Positions 5,004-19,335 of a stretch of 64,000 nt of DNA are shown here, piece by piece (within the stretch, counting starts at the first letter, position 1; the number at the start of each line of letters is the position of its first letter). The stretch spans positions 2,480,001 through 2,544,000 of the forward strand of contig NZ_VFRA01000001.1 in the NCBI RefSeq assembly GCF_006788895.1, read 5' to 3'. This stretch comes from Rhodoglobus vestalii (GTDB lineage Bacteria; Actinomycetota; Actinomycetes; Actinomycetales; Microbacteriaceae). Made by a program: the position numbers and the translations under genes. The notes under the pieces are model-generated. The model ran no database searches. It was not told the origin of the DNA and saw only the letters and a list, made by a program, of their open reading frames with translations.

Positions 5004-5970
5004 CAAGCTCCGCAACTTGAGCGGACAGGCTTTCGGCAGCCTCAACACTACGCACGCCGGCTTCACTTGCCGCGAAGGGAACCACGAGGTACCGGCCAGC
5101 TTTCACAGCACTGAGGTTCGCGGTTGCCGGGTTCGCCTCAAGTACGGCGATCTTTTTTTCTGCACTGTTCCAGTCGGCATCCACGAGCACAATGAAATCG
5201 GGGTCAGCGTCGATTACCGCCTCCCAGTTGTAGGGGGCCCAGGTGGCATCCACGTCGGCAGCAATATTGGTGAGACCCACGGTGTCGAGCAGCAGTTGCG
5301 GTGCGCCGATACCAGCGCCGACGAATGGGGTGTCTGACCCAGAGGAGAACCAGAGTGCGGTGCGGGAGTCGCCGGTGGGGTCGATGGCGGCAAGGCGGTC
5401 ACGCTGATCGGCCACGAGCTCGCTGGCATCAACCCGGAAGATCGAGGCAACCGTTTCGATGTCGCTAAACACGTTGTCGAAGGTCAGCGGTGTGGGCTGC
5501 TCGGCGCTCTGGCACGCCGAGGGTGACACAAAAGTGTTGATGCCGAGCGAGCCTAGGTCGGCGCGGTCGCCGGCACCGTCGGCGCTGAACGTGGATTCCC
5601 AACCGGCAAACACGAGATCGGGTTCTAAATCGAGCACAGCTTCTTCGCTGGGCACACGCTCGGCAATTGAGGTGAGGCCCGAAGCTTCGGATTCCCACTC
5701 GGCCGGCACCGGGCCGTCCTGAAACGCGGTTCCAATGATGCGATCGCCGAGCCCCAGTGCCAGCAGCAGCTCGGTGGTAGACGACTTGATCGTAATCACA
5801 CGTTTGGGGGCGGTCTCGAAGCTCACGCCGAAGCCGCAGTTACTCAGCTCCACGGTCTCCGCCGCGGCATCGGGGGTCGGAGTCGACGGTGGTGATGCGG
5901 TCGCCGTGCATCCGCTGAGAGCAAGAAGTGATGCGCCAGCGAGCAGCGCGGCGCGAGTGAGAATAGACAA
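4996..5970 (-). CDS. ABC substrate-binding lipoprotein, resembles the proposed F420-0 binding protein
   Basis: The 324-residue protein starts at a TTG at 5970, chosen because a GGAGG box sits six bases upstream and the first residues form a clean lipoprotein signal peptide with lipobox ALSGC (Cys21). The mature part is a FecB/BtuF-type helical-backbone binding fold. Segments such as VITIKSSTTELLLALGLG, LVFAGWESTFSADG and YLVVPFAASEAGVRSVE match my memory of the actinobacterial family annotated as proposed F420-0 ABC transporter binding proteins. A siderophore or cobalamin ligand is the alternative. Two F420-type LLM oxidoreductases lie 15-18 kb away, which fits an organism that uses F420. Confidence 0.75.
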   Translation of the reverse strand: MSILTRAALLAGASLLALSGCTATASPPSTPTPDAAAETVELSNCGFGVSFETAPKRVITIKSSTTELLLALGLGDRIIGTAFQDGPVPAEWESEASGLTSIAERVPSEEAVLDLEPDLVFAGWESTFSADGAGDRADLGSLGINTFVSPSACQSAEQPTPLTFDNVFSDIETVASIFRVDASELVADQRDRLAAIDPTGDSRTALWFSSGSDTPFVGAGIGAPQLLLDTVGLTNIAADVDATWAPYNWEAVIDADPDFIVLVDADWNSAEKKIAVLEANPATANLSAVKAGRYLVVPFAASEAGVRSVEAAESLSAQVAELDG

Positions 5971-8809: not shown

Positions 8810-11800
8810 GTGTACCTCAAGAGTTTGACCCTCAAGGGGTTTAAGTCATTCGCTCAGCCGACCACTTTTGCTTTCGAACAGGGCGTGACGTGCGTGGTTG
8901 GCCCCAACGGTTCGGGCAAGTCCAATGTGGTGGATGCTCTGGCCTGGGTCATGGGCGAGCAGGGTGCCAAAACTTTGCGCGGCGGCAAGATGGAAGATGT
9001 CATCTTTGCCGGAACCGCCACCAAGGGCCCGCTCGGCCGCGCCGAAGTGGTGCTCACCATCGACAACGCTGATGGTGCCCTGCCCATTGAGTACAGCGAA
9101 GTCACCATCAGTCGCACGCTGTTCCGCAATGGCGGCAGTGAGTATGCGATCAATGGCACCCAGTGCCGACTGCTCGATGTTCAAGAACTGCTGAGCGACT
9201 CGGGTCTTGGCCGCGAGATGCACGTCATTGTCGGCCAGGGCCAGTTGGATGCGGTGTTGCACGCCAGCCCCGAAGATCGGCGCGGTTTCATTGAAGAAGC
9301 GGCCGGAATTCTCAAGCACCGTCGTCGTAAAGAGAAAACTATTCGCAAGCTTGACGCGATGCAGGCGAACCTCACGCGGCTCTCTGACCTAGCCGGGGAG
9401 ATCCGTCGCCAACTTAAACCACTCGGCCAGCAGGCGGAGATCGCCAAAGAGGCCGCCTCGATCGCCGCCATTGTTCGGGATGCCCGCGCACGACTCCTCG
9501 CCGATGAGGTTGTCGAACTGCGCTCAAGCATTAACCATTTCAGCCGAAGTGAAAGCGAACGCAAAACTCAGCGCATTGTGCTCCAAGAGCAACTCGACCA
9601 AAACAAGCTGCGCGAAGCCCGTCTCGAGCAGGCCCAGGTGGGCGGCGAAGTCGACGAGGCTCGGCGTGTGTCCTTTGGTCTTGAATCGGCGCAAGAACGC
9701 CTCCGCAGTCTTTACACTCTTGCCAACCAGCGGCTCTCGCTGCTGGGACAACAGAGTGACTCGCCGACCTCCGGCACGACCGTCAGCCAGACACTGGTCG
9801 ACGAGGTCACCGCCGGAGCCGACACTCTTGCCGCCGGCGTTGAAGACGCCGAAAAGGCTGTCGGTGCTGCTGCCGCATCCACCGCGACAGCGAAGGCGGC
9901 GCTCGACTCGCTCGACGAAGAAATCGCTGAGCAGAGCGCGCTCGTCTCGCGTCACGAGCTGGAGAGTGCCGGGCTTAGCGCACGCGTAGAGGTCGCCAGC
10001 TCGACCCTCACCGCGGCACAGGGTGAGTTCGTGCGTCAGCAGCAGGCGCTCGCCGAAGCGCAGGCCCGTCGCGAGGCGGCTCAGGCAGACTTTGAGGCAC
10101 TCAAGGGAGAGGCCACGAACTCGCTCACCGAGTCAGACGGCTCAGTGGAGACCGCCTATGAAGCCGCAGAGGCACAGGTGGAAAGCATCCTGGTTGAGAT
10201 TGAGTCGCTGCGTGATGCGCTGCACGCCGGGGAACGTGAACGTGATGGTCTTGCCGCACGAAATTCTGCATTATCGCTCGCGGTCGATCAGAAAGATGGC
10301 TCAAGCGCGCTCGTCGCAGCCCGCCTTCCCGGCATCCGGGGGCTCGTTGCTGAGCATGTGAAGGTCACGCCCGGTTTCGAAGCGGCAATCGCTGCTGCGC
10401 TCGGCACCCTTGCCGATGCGGTGCTGGCAGAAACTCGGGATGCGGCGATCAACGCGCTGACCGAGTCAGCCAGTCGTGACTTTGGGCGGGTAGAAGTCGT
10501 TGTCGCGGATGCGCACAGCTCGGCAGCCCCGCTCGGCTCCGCTGGGTCAACGGTACCCGCCACCGACGTTGTCACGGCACCGGCTGGCGTGCATGGACTC
10601 CTGACCCACGTGTTGATCGCCGACGACCTCGACGCAGCTCGTGCGGCCCACAAATCGCTCGCCAATTCCGCCGACGTGACCTTCGTCACCCGCCAGGGAG
10701 ACGTTCTTACCCAGTTTGTGTTGCGCGGTGGGTCTGGAGCCAAGCGCTCTCGCCTTGAACTCGTGGCCGAACGTGATGCCGCGGCCGAAAAGTTGGGTGT
10801 CGTCACAACTCGCATCGAGGCCACTAGTTTCGAGCTGGAAGAGAAGCGCCGCGAACTGGCGTCGGCGAAGACGGATGCCGAAGCAGCACTCGTCACCCTT
10901 CGCGAATACGACGCTCAGCTCGCCGCGCAGTCAGAGCTTCTTGGTCGACACCGAATCCAAGCGGATGCCGCGCACGCCGAATGTGACCGCCTTTCGCGTG
11001 CCGTTGATGTTGCGGCAGCAGCGGTAGCGGACGCCACAGCCGAAGTCGGTCGCGCACAGACCGCAGCCGACGAGTATCAGTCCGCCCCGCGCCCAATGCT
11101 CGACGTGTCGGAACGTGACCCGATGCTGGCCGAGGTGGAGGCGGCGAGGGCAAGCGAAGTTGACCAACGAATCCTGCTTGAGACCATCCGCGAGCGGGTG
11201 CGCGCCGAGCGCGCCAGGGCCGAGCAACTTGCCGTCCAGCTCATTCGGGAGCGTGAAGCGGCCGCAGAACAAGCCCGACTGGCGGTTATTCGTCAACGGC
11301 AGATCGCATCCGCGACTCGTGTTGTGGAGATGCTGCCTGCGGTGCTCGACTCGGTGGACCGTTCGCTGTCTGAGGCTCGCGTGGTTCTCGCGGCGAAAGA
11401 AGCAGAACGCTCCGCCCACAACCAGGAACTCTCGGGGTTGCGCCGTGAAGAGTCAGCGCTGCGTGAACGTCTCTCCGTGGTCAGTGAAAGCGTGCACGGT
11501 CTCGAGATGCAAATCTACGAAAAGAAGTTGCACCTCTCCAGCCTCCTCGAGCGCTCGGGTGAAGAGCTCGGTCTTGTCGAAGATGTACTCGTTGCAGAAT
11601 ATGGCCCCGAGGTTGCAGTTCCCGATGATGTCGTTGCCGATGAGAGCCCGAACGAGGAAGCAGATTCTGGCGGCGATGAAGATGCCGAGCCCGCGGCATC
11701 CGGTCGTCCATTTGTGCGGGCCGAACAAGAGGCGCGACTGCAGAAAGCGGAGCGAAAACTCGCGCGCCTGGGTCGAGTCAACCCGCTCGCTCTCGAAGAG

Positions 11801-12388
11801 TTCGAGGCTCTCGAGCAGCGCCACAAGTTTCTGACGGAACAACTCACCGACCTGTCGAACACGCGCAAAGATCTGCTCACGATCATTGATGAACTCGACG
11901 AAAAGATGCAGGCGATCTTCTCCAGCGCTTTCGAAGACACGAAGAACGCGTTCAACGATGTCTTTCCGGTGCTGTTCCCGGGTGGCACAGGCAGTATTTT
12001 CCTCACCAACCCCGACGACGTGCTCACCACCGGCATTGAGGTCGCGGTGAAGCCCGCCGGCAAGAAGATTGAGCGCCTGTCGCTGTTGAGCGGTGGGGAA
12101 CGATCGCTGGCTGCAGTGGCCCTGCTGATCGCAATCTTTAAGGCCCGCCCCAGCCCGTTCTACATTATGGATGAGGTCGAAGCGGCACTTGACGATGCCA
12201 ACCTCGGCCGACTGCTCTCCATCTTCGAAGACTTGCGCCGCACCAGCCAGCTCATCATCATTACCCACCAGAAGCGCACCATGGAGATCGCAGATTCCCT
12301 TTATGGCGTGAGTATGCGCTCCGATGGCATCAGCGCGGTTGTGGGCCAGCGCGTGGCCACAGAGACTGCGTCACGCCAAACAGGCTAA
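8810..12388 (+). CDS. smc: Chromosome segregation ATPase SMC
   Basis: This 1192-residue protein has the full SMC layout. An N-terminal Walker A (GPNGSGKSN, 31-39) is followed by a long coiled coil, a hinge near residues 500-650 (including VAARLPGIRGLVAEHV), and a second coiled coil. The C-terminal half-site has LSGGERS near residue 1093 and Walker B (FYIMDEVEAALDD). The GTG start at 8810 follows an AAGGCGG-type ribosome-binding site. A charged, acidic insert occurs before the terminal ATPase half. SMC works with ScpA and ScpB, which are not in this window. It closes the yceD-rpmF-rnc-mutM run. Confidence 0.97.
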   Translation: MYLKSLTLKGFKSFAQPTTFAFEQGVTCVVGPNGSGKSNVVDALAWVMGEQGAKTLRGGKMEDVIFAGTATKGPLGRAEVVLTIDNADGALPIEYSEVTISRTLFRNGGSEYAINGTQCRLLDVQELLSDSGLGREMHVIVGQGQLDAVLHASPEDRRGFIEEAAGILKHRRRKEKTIRKLDAMQANLTRLSDLAGEIRRQLKPLGQQAEIAKEAASIAAIVRDARARLLADEVVELRSSINHFSRSESERKTQRIVLQEQLDQNKLREARLEQAQVGGEVDEARRVSFGLESAQERLRSLYTLANQRLSLLGQQSDSPTSGTTVSQTLVDEVTAGADTLAAGVEDAEKAVGAAAASTATAKAALDSLDEEIAEQSALVSRHELESAGLSARVEVASSTLTAAQGEFVRQQQALAEAQARREAAQADFEALKGEATNSLTESDGSVETAYEAAEAQVESILVEIESLRDALHAGERERDGLAARNSALSLAVDQKDGSSALVAARLPGIRGLVAEHVKVTPGFEAAIAAALGTLADAVLAETRDAAINALTESASRDFGRVEVVVADAHSSAAPLGSAGSTVPATDVVTAPAGVHGLLTHVLIADDLDAARAAHKSLANSADVTFVTRQGDVLTQFVLRGGSGAKRSRLELVAERDAAAEKLGVVTTRIEATSFELEEKRRELASAKTDAEAALVTLREYDAQLAAQSELLGRHRIQADAAHAECDRLSRAVDVAAAAVADATAEVGRAQTAADEYQSAPRPMLDVSERDPMLAEVEAARASEVDQRILLETIRERVRAERARAEQLAVQLIREREAAAEQARLAVIRQRQIASATRVVEMLPAVLDSVDRSLSEARVVLAAKEAERSAHNQELSGLRREESALRERLSVVSESVHGLEMQIYEKKLHLSSLLERSGEELGLVEDVLVAEYGPEVAVPDDVVADESPNEEADSGGDEDAEPAASGRPFVRAEQEARLQKAERKLARLGRVNPLALEEFEALEQRHKFLTEQLTDLSNTRKDLLTIIDELDEKMQAIFSSAFEDTKNAFNDVFPVLFPGGTGSIFLTNPDDVLTTGIEVAVKPAGKKIERLSLLSGGERSLAAVALLIAIFKARPSPFYIMDEVEAALDDANLGRLLSIFEDLRRTSQLIIITHQKRTMEIADSLYGVSMRSDGISAVVGQRVATETASRQTG

Positions 12389-12422: not shown

Positions 12423-12989
12423 CTAGTCGACCCCAGACAGCGGTTCGCCGTTGACGGTGCGCACAGCCCAGCCGCTAGTGAGTCGTTCGATGGTGGAAAT
12501 CGAGCCATTCACAATGTGATCGAAGTCTCGGCCGGCAAGTTCGGAGAGTGTGTAGCGGATGATCGTTCCATGACAGACAACGATCACTTTCTTGTCCGCG
12601 TAATCGGCTGAAACCTGATCGAGAGCTTCGATGCCGCGTTTGACAACCGAGTCGAGAGTTTCAAGGCCGGGGTAGCCGCGCACATCGGGCCAGCGCTGGT
12701 CGATTTCAGCCTTGGTGAGGCCTTCACCTTCGCCGTAATTCCGCTCGATGAGTAGGTCATAGCTGCGACCCAGTTCGAGCCCGCGCCCATCGGCGATAAT
12801 CTGCGCTGTTTCGCGGGCGCGCTGCAGGGGGGAACTGACAATGACGTCCCATTCGCTTCCGCGGAGCAGTTCGACAGCATCCCGCGCTTGCTGGCGCCCG
12901 ACATCGTTGAGCGGAATATCGCTGGAGCCTTGCATGCGTCCGGCAGCGTTCCAGTCGGTTTGGCCGTGACGAATGAGGGAGACGGTCAT
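12423..12989 (-). CDS. Histidine phosphatase family protein (phosphoglycerate-mutase-like)
   Basis: The 188-residue protein begins MTVSLIRHGQTDWN, with the RHG phosphohistidine motif at residues 7-9 and a second catalytic His in VVCHGTIIR. The fold acts on small phosphate esters, sugar phosphates, nucleotides or inositol phosphates; this length fits the cofactor-independent phosphatase group rather than glycolytic mutase. Its ATG overlaps the stop of the ABC ATPase by 4 bp, so it is the last gene of the phosphatase/importer operon. That coupling suggests it dephosphorylates an imported compound. The substrate is unknown. Confidence 0.88.
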   Translation of the reverse strand: MTVSLIRHGQTDWNAAGRMQGSSDIPLNDVGRQQARDAVELLRGSEWDVIVSSPLQRARETAQIIADGRGLELGRSYDLLIERNYGEGEGLTKAEIDQRWPDVRGYPGLETLDSVVKRGIEALDQVSADYADKKVIVVCHGTIIRYTLSELAGRDFDHIVNGSISTIERLTSGWAVRTVNGEPLSGVD

Positions 12990-14137
12990 CGGGCTCTTTT
13001 CTGCATCGGTTCTTTGGCCATTGTTTCAGATTCTTCGGCTCGCGGGCTCACGGAAAGCTCAGCTGACGGCCGTTCCGACGACCTCGTGGTGTCATCGGGG
13101 TAATAGAGTGCGTGGGCGATCTCGATACTGAATTTCTCGCCAACGGCGGGACGCCGCCCAGGTACGAGGCAGCGAAAGTCGATACCGTCCCAACAGACTA
13201 CAACGTCGCTTCCTTCCCGTCCGAACAGCGAGGAGACGACGATGCCATGGGGGCCTGCGCCTGCCGCTGGATGCAGTCTGATGTCGCCGGGAAGTATGGC
13301 GATGGACCCGCATCCGTTGACGTGGTTGCCGTCGATCTCGTCGCTCGAAAGGCGAAGTACGTGGGCTGCTGCGGTGAAGCATTGATCGACGATTTTGCCA
13401 GGGATCACTGTGGCGTCGCTAAGAAATCTGGCGACGAACGGTTGGCTGGGCTCGGTGACGAGTTGCTCGGGTGTGCCGGCCTGCTGGATGCGGCCATGAT
13501 CGAGCACCACGACGCGATCTGCCAGCGCGAGTGCCTCGTCGCGGTCGTGCGTCACATGCACCACGGTGAGCCCCATCGCCCGGGTGAGGGTGCGCAGTTC
13601 GAGGCGTAGGCGAGCGCGCAGCGGTTCGTCGAGCGCGGAGAGTGCTTCGTCGAGCAGCAACGCCCGTGGTGCGGTGGCGAGGGCTCGAGCGAGCGCGACG
13701 CGCTGACGCTGCCCGCCGGAGAGGGTCGCGGGATTGCGTTTCTCCATTCCGGCGAGGCCGACGAGTTCCAGCACTTCCGCGACCCGCGCGGCACGTGCCG
13801 CGCGTGGTTGTTTCGCAAGCTTGAGGGAGTATCCGACGTTACCGGCGACATCCCAGTGCGGCCAAATGGCGTGCTGTTGGAAGACCATGCCGAGCCTGCG
13901 GTGTTCGGGCTGCACGAAGGTCTTGTCGCCGGCAACCAATTCACCGCCGATTCGTATGCCGCCGTTGGTCGGGGCAATGAACCCAGCGATCGTCCGAAGC
14001 AGGGTTGTCTTGCCTGAGCCGCTGGGGCCGACGAGGGCAACGAACTCTCCGTCGGCGATTGTGAGATCGATGTTGTCGAGGCCACGTGTGCCGTCGGCAA
14101 AACGCAAACCGACACTATCGAGGGCTATTGATGACAT
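12986..14137 (-). CDS. ABC transporter ATPase, FbpC/AfuC/PotA-like
   Basis: The 383-residue protein has Walker A GPSGSGKTT (37-45), signature LSGGQRQRVALARAL and Walker B LLLDEALSALD (Ala replaces the usual Pro after DE). It also has a C-terminal TOBE-like extension typical of the Fe3+/spermidine/phosphonate/hexose-phosphate ATPase group. The ATG at 14137 is preceded by AAGGA at a good distance; the frame continues 131 codons upstream but only inside the permease gene. It starts 11 bp after the permease stop and overlaps the phosphatase behind it. The Fe3+ label common in annotation pipelines is not supported by the cognate binding protein. Confidence 0.88.
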   Translation of the reverse strand: MSSIALDSVGLRFADGTRGLDNIDLTIADGEFVALVGPSGSGKTTLLRTIAGFIAPTNGGIRIGGELVAGDKTFVQPEHRRLGMVFQQHAIWPHWDVAGNVGYSLKLAKQPRAARAARVAEVLELVGLAGMEKRNPATLSGGQRQRVALARALATAPRALLLDEALSALDEPLRARLRLELRTLTRAMGLTVVHVTHDRDEALALADRVVVLDHGRIQQAGTPEQLVTEPSQPFVARFLSDATVIPGKIVDQCFTAAAHVLRLSSDEIDGNHVNGCGSIAILPGDIRLHPAAGAGPHGIVVSSLFGREGSDVVVCWDGIDFRCLVPGRRPAVGEKFSIEIAHALYYPDDTTRSSERPSAELSVSPRAEESETMAKEPMQKRAR

Positions 14138-14148
14138 GGTTTTCCTTC

Positions 14149-15759
14149 CTAGGCGCGGATGCTGCGGGCGGTGAGTCCGAGTCCGGCAAGTCCGATAACG
14201 GTGATGATGAGTGACAGGGCGGACGCCGCGTTGTAGGCGCCTGCCTGCTGCAAATTGAAGATAAGCACTCCGATAGTCTGGGTTCCGGGGGCTACGAGCA
14301 GCACGGAGATGGTGAGTTCGCGAACAGCCGTGAGCATGACCAGGACTCCACCGGTGATCGCTGCCGGTGCGGCGAGACGCCACGAGATATCGACGAGGGC
14401 GCGCGCGCGGCTCGCTCCTGCAAGGCGGGCGGCTTCTTCGAGTGCGAGCGGGGTTGAGCGAAGTGGTGCGTTGACGGATTGCACGACCATCGCCAAGAAC
14501 GCCATGACGTAGGCGCACAGGATAAGCCATGGCGTGTTGAATAGGCCGAGTTGCGGGGCGATAATGAGCCAGCCGACGGCGAGCACGAGACCTGGAATGG
14601 CTTGTGGGAGCAGCGCGAGACCATTGAGGATGGCATTGTCCCTGCTGCGCAGGCGGGTAATGAGCGTTCCAATGGTGAGCCCCACGATGGCGCAGATGAT
14701 GCCGGCACCGACCGACAACACTATGGAGTTGATAGCTCCGGTCGCGGTGCTCGGGCTGCCCAGCGCGCGGCGGAAGCTGTCAAGCGTAAGGTTCTCCCAC
14801 GTCAGCGGCACTCCCGGTGCAGGCAGTAGGGCTTGTGTTGCCAGGGCGAAGATGGGCAGAGCGGTCAGGGCCAGTCCCGTAGTCCACGTGATGAGTGCAA
14901 TGGCAGGTTTGGCGCGCCCGAGCTGCAGCGGCACAGCCACGGTTGCCCCGCCGTCGAGCTCAAGTTTTCGCCGGGAGACGAGGGTGTCGGCAATCACTGC
15001 GATCGCGGCCAGTACCAGCAGCAGCAGACCGATGGTTGACACGACTTCGAGTGGAGCATCCACGGTGCCCGATTGAATGTACCGGTATACAAGAGTTGAC
15101 AGGGTCACGAAGCGTTCCGGTAGGCCAATGATCGACGGGATGCCGAAGTCGGCGAGGTTCGAGACCAGCGTGAGTGTGAACGCCGAAAGCAGTGCGGGTT
15201 TCAGCAAGGGAATGGTCACATGGCGCACCGCAGTCCATGCCCCTGCGCCGCCGATTCTGGCCAGCTGCTCAAGGTCGCTGGGCACTCGTCGCAGGGCCGC
15301 GCCGATGATGAGGTAGGCGATCGGGTATGAGTGCACAATGAGCAGAAACACGACTCCGTCACCGCCGTAGATGTTCCAGAGTGGCGCACCGAATGTGTCA
15401 GACCAGAACCGGTTAACGGGGCCGGCAGGGCCGGCGATACTCAACCATGCGATCGCGCCGACAAAGGGTGGCACGAGCAGTGGTGTCAGCATGAATAGTC
15501 GCAGGATACGTGCGCCGGGCAGGTCGGTGCGATCGAGGAGCAGGGCCAAGGCTGTGCCGATCGCGACTGCGCCCGTGGCGGAGAGGCCTGCCGAGATGAG
15601 GCTGTTTAGCCCGGCTTCGAGAACGTCCCCTTGCAGCAGCAGCGGGAGGTGATTGCCAGAGAATGCCTGAACTGCGATCGCACTGAGCGGGGTAGCGATT
15701 ACGCCGGCGCAGAAGAGCCAGGCGGCCACGCGTAGCCAGCTGATGCCATCCCAGCGCAA
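14149..15759 (-). CDS. ABC transporter permease, FbpB/AfuB type (two fused permease halves)
   Basis: The 536-residue protein is a tandem duplication of a six-helix permease unit with two coupling segments (one around RRVPSDLEQLARIGGAGAW, the other LALEEAARLAGASRARALVD). This is the AfuB/FbpB/PhnU-type architecture. I chose the TTG at 15759, preceded by AAGGTGG; the frame runs further upstream but crosses a GC-rich hairpin and the binding-protein gene. It pairs with the ATPase 11 bp downstream. Export is unlikely because a cognate binding lipoprotein is encoded just upstream. Confidence 0.85.
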   Translation of the reverse strand: MRWDGISWLRVAAWLFCAGVIATPLSAIAVQAFSGNHLPLLLQGDVLEAGLNSLISAGLSATGAVAIGTALALLLDRTDLPGARILRLFMLTPLLVPPFVGAIAWLSIAGPAGPVNRFWSDTFGAPLWNIYGGDGVVFLLIVHSYPIAYLIIGAALRRVPSDLEQLARIGGAGAWTAVRHVTIPLLKPALLSAFTLTLVSNLADFGIPSIIGLPERFVTLSTLVYRYIQSGTVDAPLEVVSTIGLLLLVLAAIAVIADTLVSRRKLELDGGATVAVPLQLGRAKPAIALITWTTGLALTALPIFALATQALLPAPGVPLTWENLTLDSFRRALGSPSTATGAINSIVLSVGAGIICAIVGLTIGTLITRLRSRDNAILNGLALLPQAIPGLVLAVGWLIIAPQLGLFNTPWLILCAYVMAFLAMVVQSVNAPLRSTPLALEEAARLAGASRARALVDISWRLAAPAAITGGVLVMLTAVRELTISVLLVAPGTQTIGVLIFNLQQAGAYNAASALSLIITVIGLAGLGLTARSIRA

Positions 15760-15810
15760 CCGGCCACCTTCGGTCGTACGCGTGGGGAACAAAAATTGGG
15801 CACGGGAAGG

Positions 15811-15834
15811 GGCCCGGCCGCGTGCGGCCGGGCC
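15811..15834 (-). terminator. GC-rich intercistronic hairpin after the binding-protein gene
   Basis: A perfect 10-bp G+C stem (15811-15820 with 15825-15834) and 4-base loop sits 13 bases past the binding-protein stop and 50 bases before the permease start. Such hairpins usually raise binding-protein expression relative to the permease by partial termination or 3'-end protection. No T-run is present. Confidence 0.65.
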
Positions 15835-15847
15835 TCTCGTAGCGCGA

Positions 15848-16873
15848 CTAGCCGATGAGGTCATTGAAGTAGGTAACGGCCTCTGCGCGGCTCTCACTGA
15901 TGGTGTCGAGGTCTGGCGTGACGATCTTGATTTCATCCATCGGCGGCGCCCCTTCGGGCGTTCCGACGTCGTTGCGGACGGGCAGATACGATTGTGCAAC
16001 CGCCAGCTGCTGTCCTTCAGCGCTCAGGAGGAAGTCGATAAACAACTTCGCCGCATCCGCCTCGTCGGTGCTCGCGAAGATTCCGGCTGGCTGCGACACG
16101 TACGGTACGCCGTCGCTCGGGTACGAGACGGCGATCGGCGAGCCAGCCGCGGCGAGCTCGCGGGCGAGGTAATCAACGACGGCGCCGACGGGCTGTGTTC
16201 CGGTGGCGATGGCCTGCGAGGTTGGGCCGTTGCTGTCAACGATGACTGGGTTGTTGGCGGCGAGCTTTTTCAGCCACTCTTTGCCAAGGTTGTCGTCGTT
16301 GTACCAGACCGTCGCGTTAAAGGCGGCCGCTCCTGAGACATCGGGGTTGGGCATGACAATCTTGTTCGCCCACTCTGGGTTGGCAAGTTCTTGCCACGAT
16401 GTCGGCGGGGCGTCAACAAGTCCGGTGTTGTAGGCGATCACTGTGGGGATGATGCGCGTTCCGACGTAGAAACCCTCGGGGTCGACGACGTCTTGGTTGA
16501 TGTTCGCAGCTTCGGCAGATTCGAACTCGAGCAGCAGATCTTCTGCGGCATAAGCCTCAAAGGTGGGGGCATCTGCGGCGAGCAGAATGTCGGCTTGAAT
16601 TTCGCCGGCGGCGCGCTCCGCCTCGATGCGGGCGGTAAGGTCACCCGTGCCTGCACGGAACACTTCGACCGTGATATTCGACTGCTGCTCAGTGAATGCG
16701 GAGATGATCTCGTCGATTTTCTCCTGCGGCTCGGAGGTGTAGAGCGTGATGGTGGCGGCCTCGGTGTCAGAGTTTGGCGCTGTCGCATCAGTGGCAGTCG
16801 TGCAGCCTGTCAACACGATGCCGGCTAGGGCGGCGAAGGCTACCACCGTCAAGGGTTTTTTTGCAGGAAACAT
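15848..16873 (-). CDS. ABC substrate-binding lipoprotein, AfuA/FbpA/PhnS-like; no iron-binding tyrosine pair
   Basis: This 341-residue protein has a lipoprotein signal with lipobox LTGC (Cys24) and a two-domain periplasmic-binding fold opening with ITLYTSEPQEKIDEIISAF. FbpA-type iron binders use adjacent tyrosines in the second half. Here the corresponding region reads VDYLARELAAAG then SYPSDGVPYV, and no Tyr-Tyr pair exists anywhere. That argues against Fe3+ and leaves organic ligands, as in AfuA (hexose phosphates) or aminoethylphosphonate binders. It is the fourth gene from the 5' end of an operon that includes three phosphatases. The ligand is inferred to be a phosphorylated compound. Confidence 0.85.
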   Translation of the reverse strand: MFPAKKPLTVVAFAALAGIVLTGCTTATDATAPNSDTEAATITLYTSEPQEKIDEIISAFTEQQSNITVEVFRAGTGDLTARIEAERAAGEIQADILLAADAPTFEAYAAEDLLLEFESAEAANINQDVVDPEGFYVGTRIIPTVIAYNTGLVDAPPTSWQELANPEWANKIVMPNPDVSGAAAFNATVWYNDDNLGKEWLKKLAANNPVIVDSNGPTSQAIATGTQPVGAVVDYLARELAAAGSPIAVSYPSDGVPYVSQPAGIFASTDEADAAKLFIDFLLSAEGQQLAVAQSYLPVRNDVGTPEGAPPMDEIKIVTPDLDTISESRAEAVTYFNDLIG

Positions 16874-16884
16874 GATTTCTTCTT

Positions 16885-17685
16885 TCAGTTGAGGTGGGAT
16901 ACTGCAGTGATGTGTCGGGAGTGAGAGTTAAAGAGCACCTCAGAGGGGCGCAGGGCGACGGACACGACACTGTGACCTCGATCGGTGAGATGGACGAGCG
17001 AGTAGGCGGGTGAGTCCACGCCGCGCACGCTCTCTGGTGCGGCGGTCGGGTCCTGTTGGTATGACAGGGCAGGGCTCACAGAGATGGGTACGCTGCCGAG
17101 TTGGGCGCTGAGCGAGTGATGGAAGTGTCCGGCAAGGATCATGCGCACATCGGATGCTGCGATGACGGCGGCTAACTCGTCGGCGTCGCTCAATTCCCGA
17201 CCCGCGAGGGCGACTAGTGGAGAAGGTGTGGGCGGGTGGTGCAGTACGAGGACTGTGCCGTCTCCGTGGGGTTCGCTCAGTTCCCCGGCGAGCCATTCCA
17301 ACTGAGTGCTGCCCAGGCTGCCGGTGCTCGAGTCGAGTAGCGCCAAGCGGGTCTGCCCGACGTACGCAATGCGCCGGTTTACGCCCGTGGACTGCGGCAG
17401 CGTCAGGAACGCGAGAGGGTGGTCGTGATTTCCCGGCACGATGAGAACCGGCGCACCGGTGCTCGCCTCAAGTCTGGTCAGCGCTGCGGCCACATCGGTA
17501 TAGGCCTCGGTGTGGCCCGACTGCACGAGATCCCCCGCGACGATGACGGCGTCTGGGTTCACACCCATCTCTCTGAGCGAGAGTCCGACGAGATCGAGAC
17601 GATCAATGCCGTCGACCGTCCCATAGAGGGGGCCGCCAACGCTTGCATGTGGGTCGCTCACGTGGGCGAGGAGGAGACTATGCAT
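16885..17685 (-). CDS. Metallophosphoesterase (class III phosphodiesterase / GpdQ-like)
   Basis: The 266-residue enzyme shows the binuclear metal motifs in order: HVSDPH (near residue 8), GDLVQSG, GNHDH, HHPP and GHFHH. This pattern is shared by bacterial cyclic-nucleotide and glycerophospho-diesterases. I prefer the ATG at 17685, which overlaps the upstream phosphatase by 8 bp; a GTG at 17706 would add seven residues. It ends 11 bp before the binding-protein gene. No signal peptide is seen, so it acts in the cytoplasm, after import. It shares the motif set of the paralogue at 36672 but the context differs. Confidence 0.87.
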   Translation of the reverse strand: MHSLLLAHVSDPHASVGGPLYGTVDGIDRLDLVGLSLREMGVNPDAVIVAGDLVQSGHTEAYTDVAAALTRLEASTGAPVLIVPGNHDHPLAFLTLPQSTGVNRRIAYVGQTRLALLDSSTGSLGSTQLEWLAGELSEPHGDGTVLVLHHPPTPSPLVALAGRELSDADELAAVIAASDVRMILAGHFHHSLSAQLGSVPISVSPALSYQQDPTAAPESVRGVDSPAYSLVHLTDRGHSVVSVALRPSEVLFNSHSRHITAVSHLN

Positions 17686-18415
17686 GCTTCGCCATTCGTC
17701 GCTCACGAAGCGCGGCCAGATCTTGGAGTGTCACGCCGTGGGCGAGCAGGTATTCATTGATGCTGCCGAAGCGGGTTCGGATCTCTGCCAGAGCCGACAT
17801 GAGTGCCGCGGCGGGGCTGTCGAGGTGCAGTTCCAACGCGTTGGCCAGCTGATCGCCGCCGAGCTCCAGTGCGGCCAGCGATTGGGTGACGATGTCGTGT
17901 CTGTGCGGTCGGACGTGCGAACCGGATGCCGCGTAGTCGTCAACGACTGCAGCCTCAGTGAGACCCGCGGCGTGCAGCGCGAGTGCGACGACCAAGCCCG
18001 TCCTGTCTTTGCCTGCGGTGCAGTGGACGAGCACTGGGGTCTCTGACCGCGCAATCGCCGACACGGCAGAGCCGAGTTTGCGGCCGCGATCGAAGAGCAT
18101 GAGGTTATAGATTGAGCTGAGTGTTCCGGACTGAGGGGGCCCATCGGGGAGATCGTAGATGGGGATGTGGGTGGTCGTGATGGAGGTGACGGCTGAGCGG
18201 CGTTCGTGGTGCTCTCGAAGGTCGATGACGAGCCCGATTTCGTTCGCCCGTAAGGTATCGATGTCGTCTTGATGTAGGTGGTCAAGCGCGGCCGAGCGGT
18301 AGAGCCAGGGTTCGTTTGCTGCACGGCGAAGGTTGTAGGTTCCGTGGAGATTCCACATCACAAGACCGTCCATTCCGTCGTTTCGTGAGGCATGAAATTG
18401 TGTTTCATATGACAC
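17678..18415 (-). CDS. Tyrosine-phosphatase-like protein (dual-specificity / lipid phosphatase type)
   Basis: The 245-residue protein contains the P-loop HCTAGKDRTG (131-140; nucleophile Cys132, Arg138) and the preceding LYRSAAL and VIDLREHHER motifs. These are typical of the Y_phosphatase3 family, whose members act on phosphotyrosine, phosphoinositides or small phosphate esters. The start is uncertain: GTG at 18415 is used, with ATG at 18373 or 18358 as alternatives, and none has a strong ribosome-binding site. It is the first enzyme of the phosphatase/importer run, 68 bp after the RpiR gene. A metabolic role is favoured over signalling because of the neighbours. Confidence 0.85.
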   Translation of the reverse strand: MSYETQFHASRNDGMDGLVMWNLHGTYNLRRAANEPWLYRSAALDHLHQDDIDTLRANEIGLVIDLREHHERRSAVTSITTTHIPIYDLPDGPPQSGTLSSIYNLMLFDRGRKLGSAVSAIARSETPVLVHCTAGKDRTGLVVALALHAAGLTEAAVVDDYAASGSHVRPHRHDIVTQSLAALELGGDQLANALELHLDSPAAALMSALAEIRTRFGSINEYLLAHGVTLQDLAALRERRMAKHA

Positions 18416-18483
18416 TCGCGAGCGGAACTAAACCGGCGGTTAACGCCGTGTGACCTTCCGGTGAACCGACTGCGACGTTCTCG

Positions 18484-19335
18484 CTACGTGCCCGGAAAAC
18501 CGTCGGTGAGGGAATCCGCCACGACATCGCGCATGGAGGTCATGAGCGACTCTGCGCCCGGCTGCGCAAATACGGCCCGCTGCAGCGCATGGAGAACCAG
18601 TCCGTGACTGATCCTGCTGAGATGGGGGTCAACGTCGTGGTTGCGGGTGACGGGCCCGGTCACCAGAGAGACATCGGCAAGTCTGGTCAATGGCGATCGA
18701 GCAAAGCTCGTGATCGCGATCACCGTTGCACCGCCGCCGTCCTTCGCGGCGCTGCACGCCTTGAGCGTGTTCGCATTGGCTCCGGAGTAACTGACAGCCA
18801 GACAAACATCCCCCCCTTTTAGGAGACGCGCGGCAAACTGCTGGGCCTGCACATCGAGCGGGGCGTCGACTGGGCGGCCTGCGGTCAGGAAGCGCAGTGC
18901 GGCATCCTGAATTGGCGGGGAGGAAAACCCGGTGCCCACCATAAGCACGCGGCCGGCCTGCGAGAGCGCCGTTGCTGCGCGGTCGAAATCAGCCGTGCTG
19001 AGGCTCTCCTGACTCACGCTAATAGCATCGGCGGCCTCCGCGAAGATGGTCGAAACCATGTGTCGCGACTCCACACTGGGGCGTGCGGGGGTGCGGGCTA
19101 GCTCAAGGCGAAGGTGCTGGTAGCCGCGAAATCCTAGGTTTTGGCACGCCCGGATTACTGTAGCGGGCGAGGTGTGCGCAACAGCTGCCAGCTCGGCAGT
19201 TGACCACTCCACCGAATTGTCTGGTGCGTCAATGAGAGCCTGTACGACCCGACCCTCACTCGGGCCGAGCATGGGCAGTGCTGAGCGCAATCGTGTCAGC
19301 AGCGGAGTCGAAGCACCAGAATCGAGGGAACTCAT
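18484..19335 (-). CDS. MurR/RpiR family transcriptional regulator (HTH + SIS domain)
   Basis: This 283-residue regulator has an N-terminal HTH_6 domain (roughly 1-85, including STAELAAVAHTSPATVIRACQNLGF) and a C-terminal SIS domain (MVGTGFSS, AVSYSGANANT, VIAITSF). SIS domains bind phosphosugars, so the likely signal is a sugar phosphate or related ester. The ATG at 19335 follows AAGGAG; the longer frame upstream runs through the promoter region. It lies at the head of, and in the same direction as, the phosphatase/importer genes and is divergent from ftsY. An 11-bp direct repeat in its promoter could be its operator. Confidence 0.88.
   Translation of the reverse strand: MSSLDSGASTPLLTRLRSALPMLGPSEGRVVQALIDAPDNSVEWSTAELAAVAHTSPATVIRACQNLGFRGYQHLRLELARTPARPSVESRHMVSTIFAEAADAISVSQESLSTADFDRAATALSQAGRVLMVGTGFSSPPIQDAALRFLTAGRPVDAPLDVQAQQFAARLLKGGDVCLAVSYSGANANTLKACSAAKDGGGATVIAITSFARSPLTRLADVSLVTGPVTRNHDVDPHLSRISHGLVLHALQRAVFAQPGAESLMTSMRDVVADSLTDGFPGT

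Follow-up and report, generated by a model that had tools for sequence, protein, structure and literature searches.

Uptake of organophosphates, in this case glycerophosphodiesters, by ATP-binding cassette (ABC) importers is tied to a phosphodiesterase in UgpBAEC-UgpQ of Escherichia coli and in ugpCBEA-glpQ of Corynebacterium glutamicum, and the latter cluster responds to phosphate limitation according to the available sections of the review PMC7866108. The same sections give two routes for organic phosphodiesters in actinobacteria, hydrolysis outside the cell or Ugp. Other described systems with related parts are the hexose/heptose phosphate importer AfuABC, a three-gene locus of mostly Gram-negative bacteria in the available text of PMC4546632, the pyridoxal-phosphate importer P5PAB, the aminoethylphosphonate importers PhnS2-T2-U2 and PhnSTUV, and the phosphodiesterases Rv0805 and GpdQ. 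The subject of this report is a seven-gene module in a window of 64,000 nucleotides from Rhodoglobus vestalii (contig NZ_VFRA01000001.1, positions 2,480,001 to 2,544,000), which is part of a one-contig genome of 2.84 Mb. The module lies on the minus strand at window positions 12423-19335, flanked by smc (8810-12388) and ftsY, both on the plus strand. It is probably a phosphate-starvation operon for scavenging an organophosphate in intact form; a phosphodiester with a sugar or polyol alcohol part is the most probable substrate. Searches of the open-licence PMC literature listed no description of this gene set.

All seven genes named by the initial annotation were confirmed by Pfam in the same order, on the minus strand. 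A regulator of the RpiR/MurR family with SIS domain (RpiR, 283 aa, 18484..19335; HTH_6 and SIS, PF01418 and PF01380) is followed by a Y_phosphatase3 (PtpB-like) phosphatase designated TyrP (17678..18415) and a metallophosphoesterase designated MPE (16885..17685; Metallophos, PF00149). The next genes encode an SBP_bac_6-type substrate-binding lipoprotein (SBP, 15848..16873; AfuA/P5PA/PhnS-like), a double, fused permease with two BPD_transp_1 stretches (14149..15759), a PhnT2/PotA-like ABC importer ATPase (12986..14137), and a histidine phosphatase of branch 1 and of a module-type subfamily (12423..12989; His_Phos_1, PF00300), which overlaps the ATPase gene by 4 bp. The spacing given earlier is also right, with overlaps of 4 and 8 bp and gaps of 11, 11, 88, and 68 bp. 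Between SBP and permease, the gap of 88 bp (15760..15847) presumes a TTG start of the permease at 15759, and the 68-bp gap between RpiR and TyrP presumes a GTG start of TyrP at 18415. Homologues favour ATG at 18373, which is probably the start of TyrP, and the latter gap would then be about 110 bp long. When the 88-bp gap was folded, the hairpin noticed before was recovered as a strong, G+C-rich stem of 10 pairs; it possibly lowers the expression of the downstream genes relative to SBP.

A scan of genome contigs with SBP gave 19 loci, of which L052 from Lachnospiraceae (23% identical) was dropped. The 18 named loci kept are from Leucobacter (six), Agrococcus (five), Yaniella (three), Microbacterium, Auritidibacter, Nesterenkonia, and an unassigned Micrococcaceae metagenome-assembled genome (MAG; one each). 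RpiR, TyrP, MPE, SBP, permease, and ATPase are kept in the same order and strand in 17 of them, and the sole exception is Nesterenkonia L050 with the transporter alone; the six genes are a real conserved operon across several genera. With script-chosen starts, a 4-bp overlap between TyrP and MPE was counted in 13 of the 17 loci. A listing of open reading frames (ORFs) that recur in at least two other loci showed no flanking gene that the genera have in common, the flanks being unannotated. One ORF of Auritidibacter (L051, 789-1448) is related to ORFs of two other loci.

Among 150 genomes of the family, an SBP orthologue is present in 11 (at least 55% identity, the next best match having 32%). 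Module grade was set at 327 bits or more for MPE (the next score is 245) and at 362 bits or more for RpiR, below which are genome G063 with 337 bits, its sequence being in the query alignment, and then 252 bits. RpiR scores 362-411 bits in 10 of the 150 genomes, the window's own counted. Ten of the 11 genomes with SBP orthologue, the same ten for both, have module-grade MPE and RpiR, compared with none of the remaining 139 (Fisher p 9e-15). TyrP reaches at least 241 bits in 8 of these 11 genomes and in 2 of the 139, and it can be absent, as in G116 and G122. The co-occurrence in relatives that had been put forward as a check is supported, but TyrP is sometimes missing and the histidine phosphatase is attached less tightly. 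The SBP orthologue is sparse in the class, with four matches among 394 genomes (E 1e-150 or better), and in the order, with 6 of 396 genomes at 1e-60, the own genome included in both counts.

The module had been described as carrying three phosphatases. Three phosphoesterase families are present, but MPE sits with class III phosphodiesterases, so the set is better read by family as one predicted phosphodiesterase and two predicted phosphomonoesterases. In the PDB, the MPE profile matched Rv0805 best (3.4e-68), and then 2zo9 (1e-25), which has the title 'Phosphohydrolase' and which we take to be GpdQ. Metal ligands of class III enzymes follow the pattern D-x-H, GD, GNHD, H, GHxH. This pattern is complete in MPE, where D11, H13, D52, N86, H87, H149, H187, and H189 are invariant in 18 sequences, and MPE belongs by family with the class III phosphodiesterases of Rv0805/GpdQ type. 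In a tree of 47 rows, the module MPEs are a clade of their own (support 99/99), separate from Rv0805 and GpdQ, with which they have the metal-ligand pattern in common. PtpB (1ywf, 3.5e-30) is the best PDB profile match of TyrP, which scores 144.6 bits against PF13350. The P-loop of PtpB/LipA-type phosphatases has the motif HCx2GKDRTG; in TyrP it is HCTAGKDRTG, with H, C, and GKDRTG invariant in 18 sequences.

Two candidate control elements lie between RpiR and TyrP. The direct repeat at 18449..18466 (minus strand) differs by 2 mismatches in 14 from GTTCACC-N4-GTTCACC, which we take to be the PHO-box consensus. It reads GTTCACC-GGAA-GGTCACA and is accompanied by a third repeat at 18438-18444; none of 200 shuffles reached this match. 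A PHO box is given as two 11-nt direct repeat units in the available part of PMC7866108. Of 26 homologous gaps, 14 contain exact GTTCACC on the strand of the operon (0.3 expected) and none contains it on the opposite strand. The two-unit repeat does better than shuffles (p 0.05 or less) in 14 of these 26 module gaps and before four of five transporter-only copies. Genome-wide, 43 PHO-like sites with up to two mismatches were counted versus 5 for the reversed pattern, and such sites are located about 200 bp upstream of two of the three PBP_like_2 (pstS-like) matches. The repeat suggests that the operon is under phosphate-starvation control from a candidate PhoP site, which is in line with the phosphate dependence proposed for it before. 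A stand-alone paralogue of MPE (G000:C1:2113962-2114879; L173, 8963-9880) has a PHO-like repeat about 20 bp upstream and may be a phosphate-starvation enzyme itself.

Just downstream of the repeat, the palindrome TGAAACACAATTTCA (18393..18407) follows TGNAA-N5-TTNCA, which is exact in 14 of 27 homologous RpiR-TyrP gaps against 0.05 expected by composition, the pattern having been derived from the same gaps and the gap windows extending some way into the next gene. The 26 fetched loci, 490 kb in total without the window, contain 15 exact sites, and 13 of them fall in these gaps. With both HTH_6 and SIS, RpiR has the domains of RpiR regulators of phosphosugar metabolism, as had been assumed, and the conserved palindrome adjacent to its gene is its putative operator. 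Another exact TGNAA-N5-TTNCA at 5720-5734, far from the module, is probably a chance occurrence.

RpiR of the same clade was also found beside importers of other classes. A TyrP search uncovered a G063 locus that combines RpiR, a Ugp-like ATPase, a CUT1 binding protein, TyrP, MPE, and two permeases. Its ATPase is above the UgpC subfamily cut-off (444.5 vs 432), its permeases are UgpA/E-like but below cut-off, and its RpiR has 43-48% identity to that of the window. In 11 regions around relatives of this binding protein, MPE is adjacent in seven, RpiR in five, and TyrP in four. Named plasmids of Arthrobacter and Microbacterium sediminis have the gene order of the G063 locus, a Rhodococcus plasmid has a shorter CUT1-type order without RpiR and TyrP, and plasmids of Sulfitobacter and Agrobacterium have the order MPE-SBP-permease-permease-TyrP-UgpC. 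RpiR of the M. sediminis plasmid is annotated as two overlapping pieces, HTH and SIS (L131, 5615-6606), in a CUT1-type locus that is otherwise complete. In six regions around the next RpiR matches, PhnCDE-type genes are present in five (by NCBIfam for L149 and by eye for the rest), and MPE is beside RpiR in four, including L150 with no importer in view.

In the RpiR tree, 35 rows group together with support 95/96, apart from 9 other RpiR. They comprise 20 AfuABC-type, 8 CUT1-type, and 6 PhnCDE-type rows and one intended outgroup (L159), which also adjoins a PhnE-looking gene (by eye). MPE is found in the RpiR locus in 20/20, 8/8, and 4/6 of the three types, respectively. One RpiR clade, usually together with a metallophosphoesterase, thus adjoins three importer classes, namely AfuABC-type, Ugp/CUT1, and PhnCDE. 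The module resembles the Ugp systems in combining ABC uptake with a putative phosphodiesterase and in having a CUT1/Ugp-like variant. In contrast to CUT1-type UgpBAEC with the GDPD enzymes UgpQ or GlpQ, the importer of the window is AfuABC/FbpABC-type, with PhnS2, PhnT2, and PhnU2 as its models, its esterase is calcineurin-like (Metallophos), and RpiR, the PtpB-like phosphatase, and the histidine phosphatase are additional.

Twelve annotated regions around SBP relatives are on proteobacterial plasmids and one Aerococcus plasmid, and two further regions are unannotated. In seven of the 12, the importer has beside it a metallo-beta-lactamase (MBL)-fold hydrolase together with SurE, a HAD phosphatase, or a histidine phosphatase, and five are without them; Pfam confirmation was run on genes from three of the seven regions. 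In Table 1 of PMC10132767, the predicted phosphodiesterase 11288, the 'sugar' ABC binding protein 11293, and the ATPase 11308 of Phaeobacter MED193 rise under phosphate stress, and 11288 and 11308 are undetected in the phoB mutant. The order of annotations, rather than sequence, suggests that 11288-11308 is a CUT1-type locus.

The main rivals to a sugar or polyol phosphodiester are a sugar phosphate monoester and nucleotides. AfuA (2.8e-24), VcA0625 (8x1a, titled G6P binding protein), and P5PA are the three closest solved relatives of SBP by PDB profile, as would be expected if the module were an AfuABC-like importer of a sugar phosphate monoester for carbon and phosphate, with MPE in another role. 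For both AfuA and P5PA, the ligand came along with the purified protein into the crystal structure. The contacts of AfuA and P5PA were taken from the available parts of PMC4546632 and PMC8427247, and the pocket columns were compared over 19 SBPs. From the AfuA phosphate site (Ser37, Gly38, Thr60, Ser148, Gly149, Thr150, and Gly185; PMC8427247), four of seven positions are kept in 19/19 as T76, G77, S180, and G181, and S214 aligns with a Ser used by P5PA and is G in 12/12 proteobacterial relatives. The ring-binding triad of AfuA is His205, Asp206, and Glu229, with H205 essential (PMC4546632). D234 in 19/19 and position 254 (E in 13, D in 6) match Asp206 and Glu229, but the essential His205 is V233 in 19/19, and the full triad is thus missing. 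R140 and E48 are invariant in the 19 and are K and Q in 12/12 proteobacterial relatives. The transporter-only copy of Nesterenkonia L050 is in line behind zwf-opcA-pgl-looking genes (by eye), which also fits a monoester; however, MPE is kept as strictly as RpiR (10/11), and the MBL-fold hydrolase is in the place of MPE in 7/12 proteobacterial regions. A monoester as the substrate is, therefore, unlikely.

In the case of nucleotide salvage, cyclic or plain nucleotides would be imported, 2',3'- or 3',5'-cyclic phosphates would be opened by the Rv0805-like enzyme, and the phosphatases would yield nucleosides. Rv0805 as the closest solved structure speaks for it, as do the nearest NCBIfam models of MPE (cAMP and 2',3'-cyclic nucleotide phosphodiesterases, below cut-off), a SurE-family gene in two proteobacterial relatives, and a HAD acid phosphatase in two, one of which matches the PNKP phosphatase domain. 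However, the known ligands of SBP relatives are hexose phosphates or pyridoxal phosphate, and phosphosugars are suggested both by RpiR in the module and by the DeoR or 'sugar-binding' regulators found next to the relatives. We also know of no PtpB-like phosphatases acting as nucleotidases, and nucleotides as the substrate seem improbable. An importer of 2-aminoethylphosphonate or another phosphonate, similar to PhnSTU2 and from the same importer superfamily, could be proposed from the best NCBIfam names PhnS2, PhnT2, and PhnU2 and from the PhnCDE-type importer in one module variant. The scores are, however, far below the equivalog cut-offs (126.8/392.75, 283.8/457.7, and 136.2/593.25, respectively), and no C-P cleaving or other phosphonate-degrading family is among the seven genes, the flanks of the loci not being annotated for such enzymes; a phosphonate is for these reasons very unlikely. 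FbpA binds ferric iron by His9, Glu57, Tyr195, and Tyr196, residues for which there are named mutants. The predicted SBP model (pLDDT, a model confidence score, of 83) does not separate AfuA from FbpA. In the alignment, His9 is replaced by P49 and Glu57 by A100 (both 19/19), Tyr195 corresponds to Y235 (Y in 12, S in 6, F in 1), and Tyr196 is in a gap, so an FbpABC iron importer with unrelated enzymes beside it is hardly credible, also considering its co-occurrence with phosphoesterases. The importer is supported as nearest to phosphate-ester binders, in agreement with the type assigned to it at first.

In the preferred reading of a phosphate-starvation operon for a sugar or polyol phosphodiester, SBP would bind the compound in an AfuA-like cleft, and the fused permease with the ATPase would import it intact. 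MPE, similar to Rv0805 and GpdQ, would open the phosphodiester in the cytoplasm, and TyrP and the histidine phosphatase would free phosphate from the resulting monoester or monoesters. PhoP would turn the operon on when phosphate is short, and RpiR at TGNAA-N5-TTNCA would add a further control, exerted by a phosphorylated pathway product. Import with diester and monoester hydrolysis in the cytoplasm under PhoP and RpiR would account for the control elements and for the fact that both the importer and the putative phosphodiesterase fold are exchanged. The genes, their conservation, the motifs, the catalytic residues, and the change of importer class are observed, whereas all substrates, the direction of flux, and the actions of PhoP and RpiR are inferred. 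Our best guess for the substrate class is a glycerophospho-polyol, for example glycerophosphoinositol, or a sugar phosphodiester of comparable kind. Organophosphate uptake with stepwise dephosphorylation, as outlined in the initial annotation, agrees with the phosphodiesterase and phosphomonoesterase families and the phosphate-ester-type SBP, but its phosphonate option is disfavoured.

Several observations weigh against this reading. No substrate measurement was found for any module member, and three of the seven AfuA phosphate contacts are changed in SBP (Thr60 to D101, Thr150 to A182, and Gly185 to N215). TyrP is absent from L068 and L069, and the transporter occurs alone in L050, L062, L067, L081, and L082. 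The two-unit PHO repeat fails against shuffles in 12 of 26 module gaps and reaches p 0.05 or less before only 3 of 11 CUT1-type and 1 of 6 PhnCDE-type loci; composition alone predicts 21 of the PHO-like sites versus 43 observed. The palindrome is unspecific genome-wide, with 15 sites versus 11 for the reversed control. The Phaeobacter binding protein 11293 is still up in the phoB mutant (3.27), at 0.01% abundance versus 0.47% (PMC10132767, in the available data). The MPEs of CUT1 loci are in three places of the tree and none is with the group of the window, from which it follows that phosphodiesterases were recruited repeatedly and that the partnership was assembled more than once.

Tentatively, the module may be one form of a wider class of systems that scavenge intact phosphodiesters, in which one core (the RpiR clade with a class III phosphodiesterase, in many cases joined by a PtpB-like phosphatase) is combined with at least three unrelated ABC importer classes. 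Such systems would open polyol phosphodiesters from phospholipids, glycerophosphoinositol among them, to actinobacteria under the control of phosphate, and related forms would do so for roseobacters, rhizobia, and enterobacteria. A large pool of phosphorus consists of organic phosphodiesters. A conserved operon that apparently imports the intact compound, with three interchangeable importer classes, would give new names to many 'iron', 'spermidine', 'phosphonate', and 'sugar' transporters in public genomes and to many 'tyrosine phosphatases'. If the wider class is true, PtpB/LipA-like 'tyrosine phosphatases' would serve nutrient catabolism and not signalling. The reading also yields a short list of ligands for testing.

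The histidine phosphatase is less firmly tied to the module. A gene of the module type adjoins 14 of the 18 named loci, downstream in ten and upstream of RpiR in four (Yaniella and the Micrococcaceae MAG); it is not adjacent in L038, L050, and L053, and L040 stops at the contig end. The window protein has 185 bits against a profile built without its own sequence, two genomes of the same genus have 182 and 185 bits, and other histidine phosphatases in the fetched loci have 34-92 bits. The catalytic set R7, H8, R57, E82, and H140 is invariant in 15 sequences. The two same-genus genomes, G082 (L184) and G145 (L183), hold the gene alone in the order smc-histidine phosphatase-ftsY; the other six module genes are absent at this site, and RpiR and TyrP had no match in these genomes at the thresholds used. 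We read this as a loss of six genes, since the 4-bp overlap with the ATPase recurs in several other genera, and an insertion of the module beside a resident histidine phosphatase gene is a possible alternative. In G071 (L091, 8079-9437), TyrP and a module-type histidine phosphatase are paired, with no further module gene within the fetched 18 kb.

Some loci have particular arrangements. About 3 kb of other genes are between RpiR and TyrP in G134 (L071, 3385-6340). The Nesterenkonia copy behind the zwf-opcA-pgl-looking genes (L050, 6472-13782) has a PHO-like repeat with two mismatches in its 115-bp gap. The transporter-only copies in L081 (7418-12561) and L082 (6778-11927) are located 145 bp behind a gene that looks like a MetE-type methyltransferase (by eye), and the importer relative of Kosakonia (L135) is likewise behind an annotated metE.

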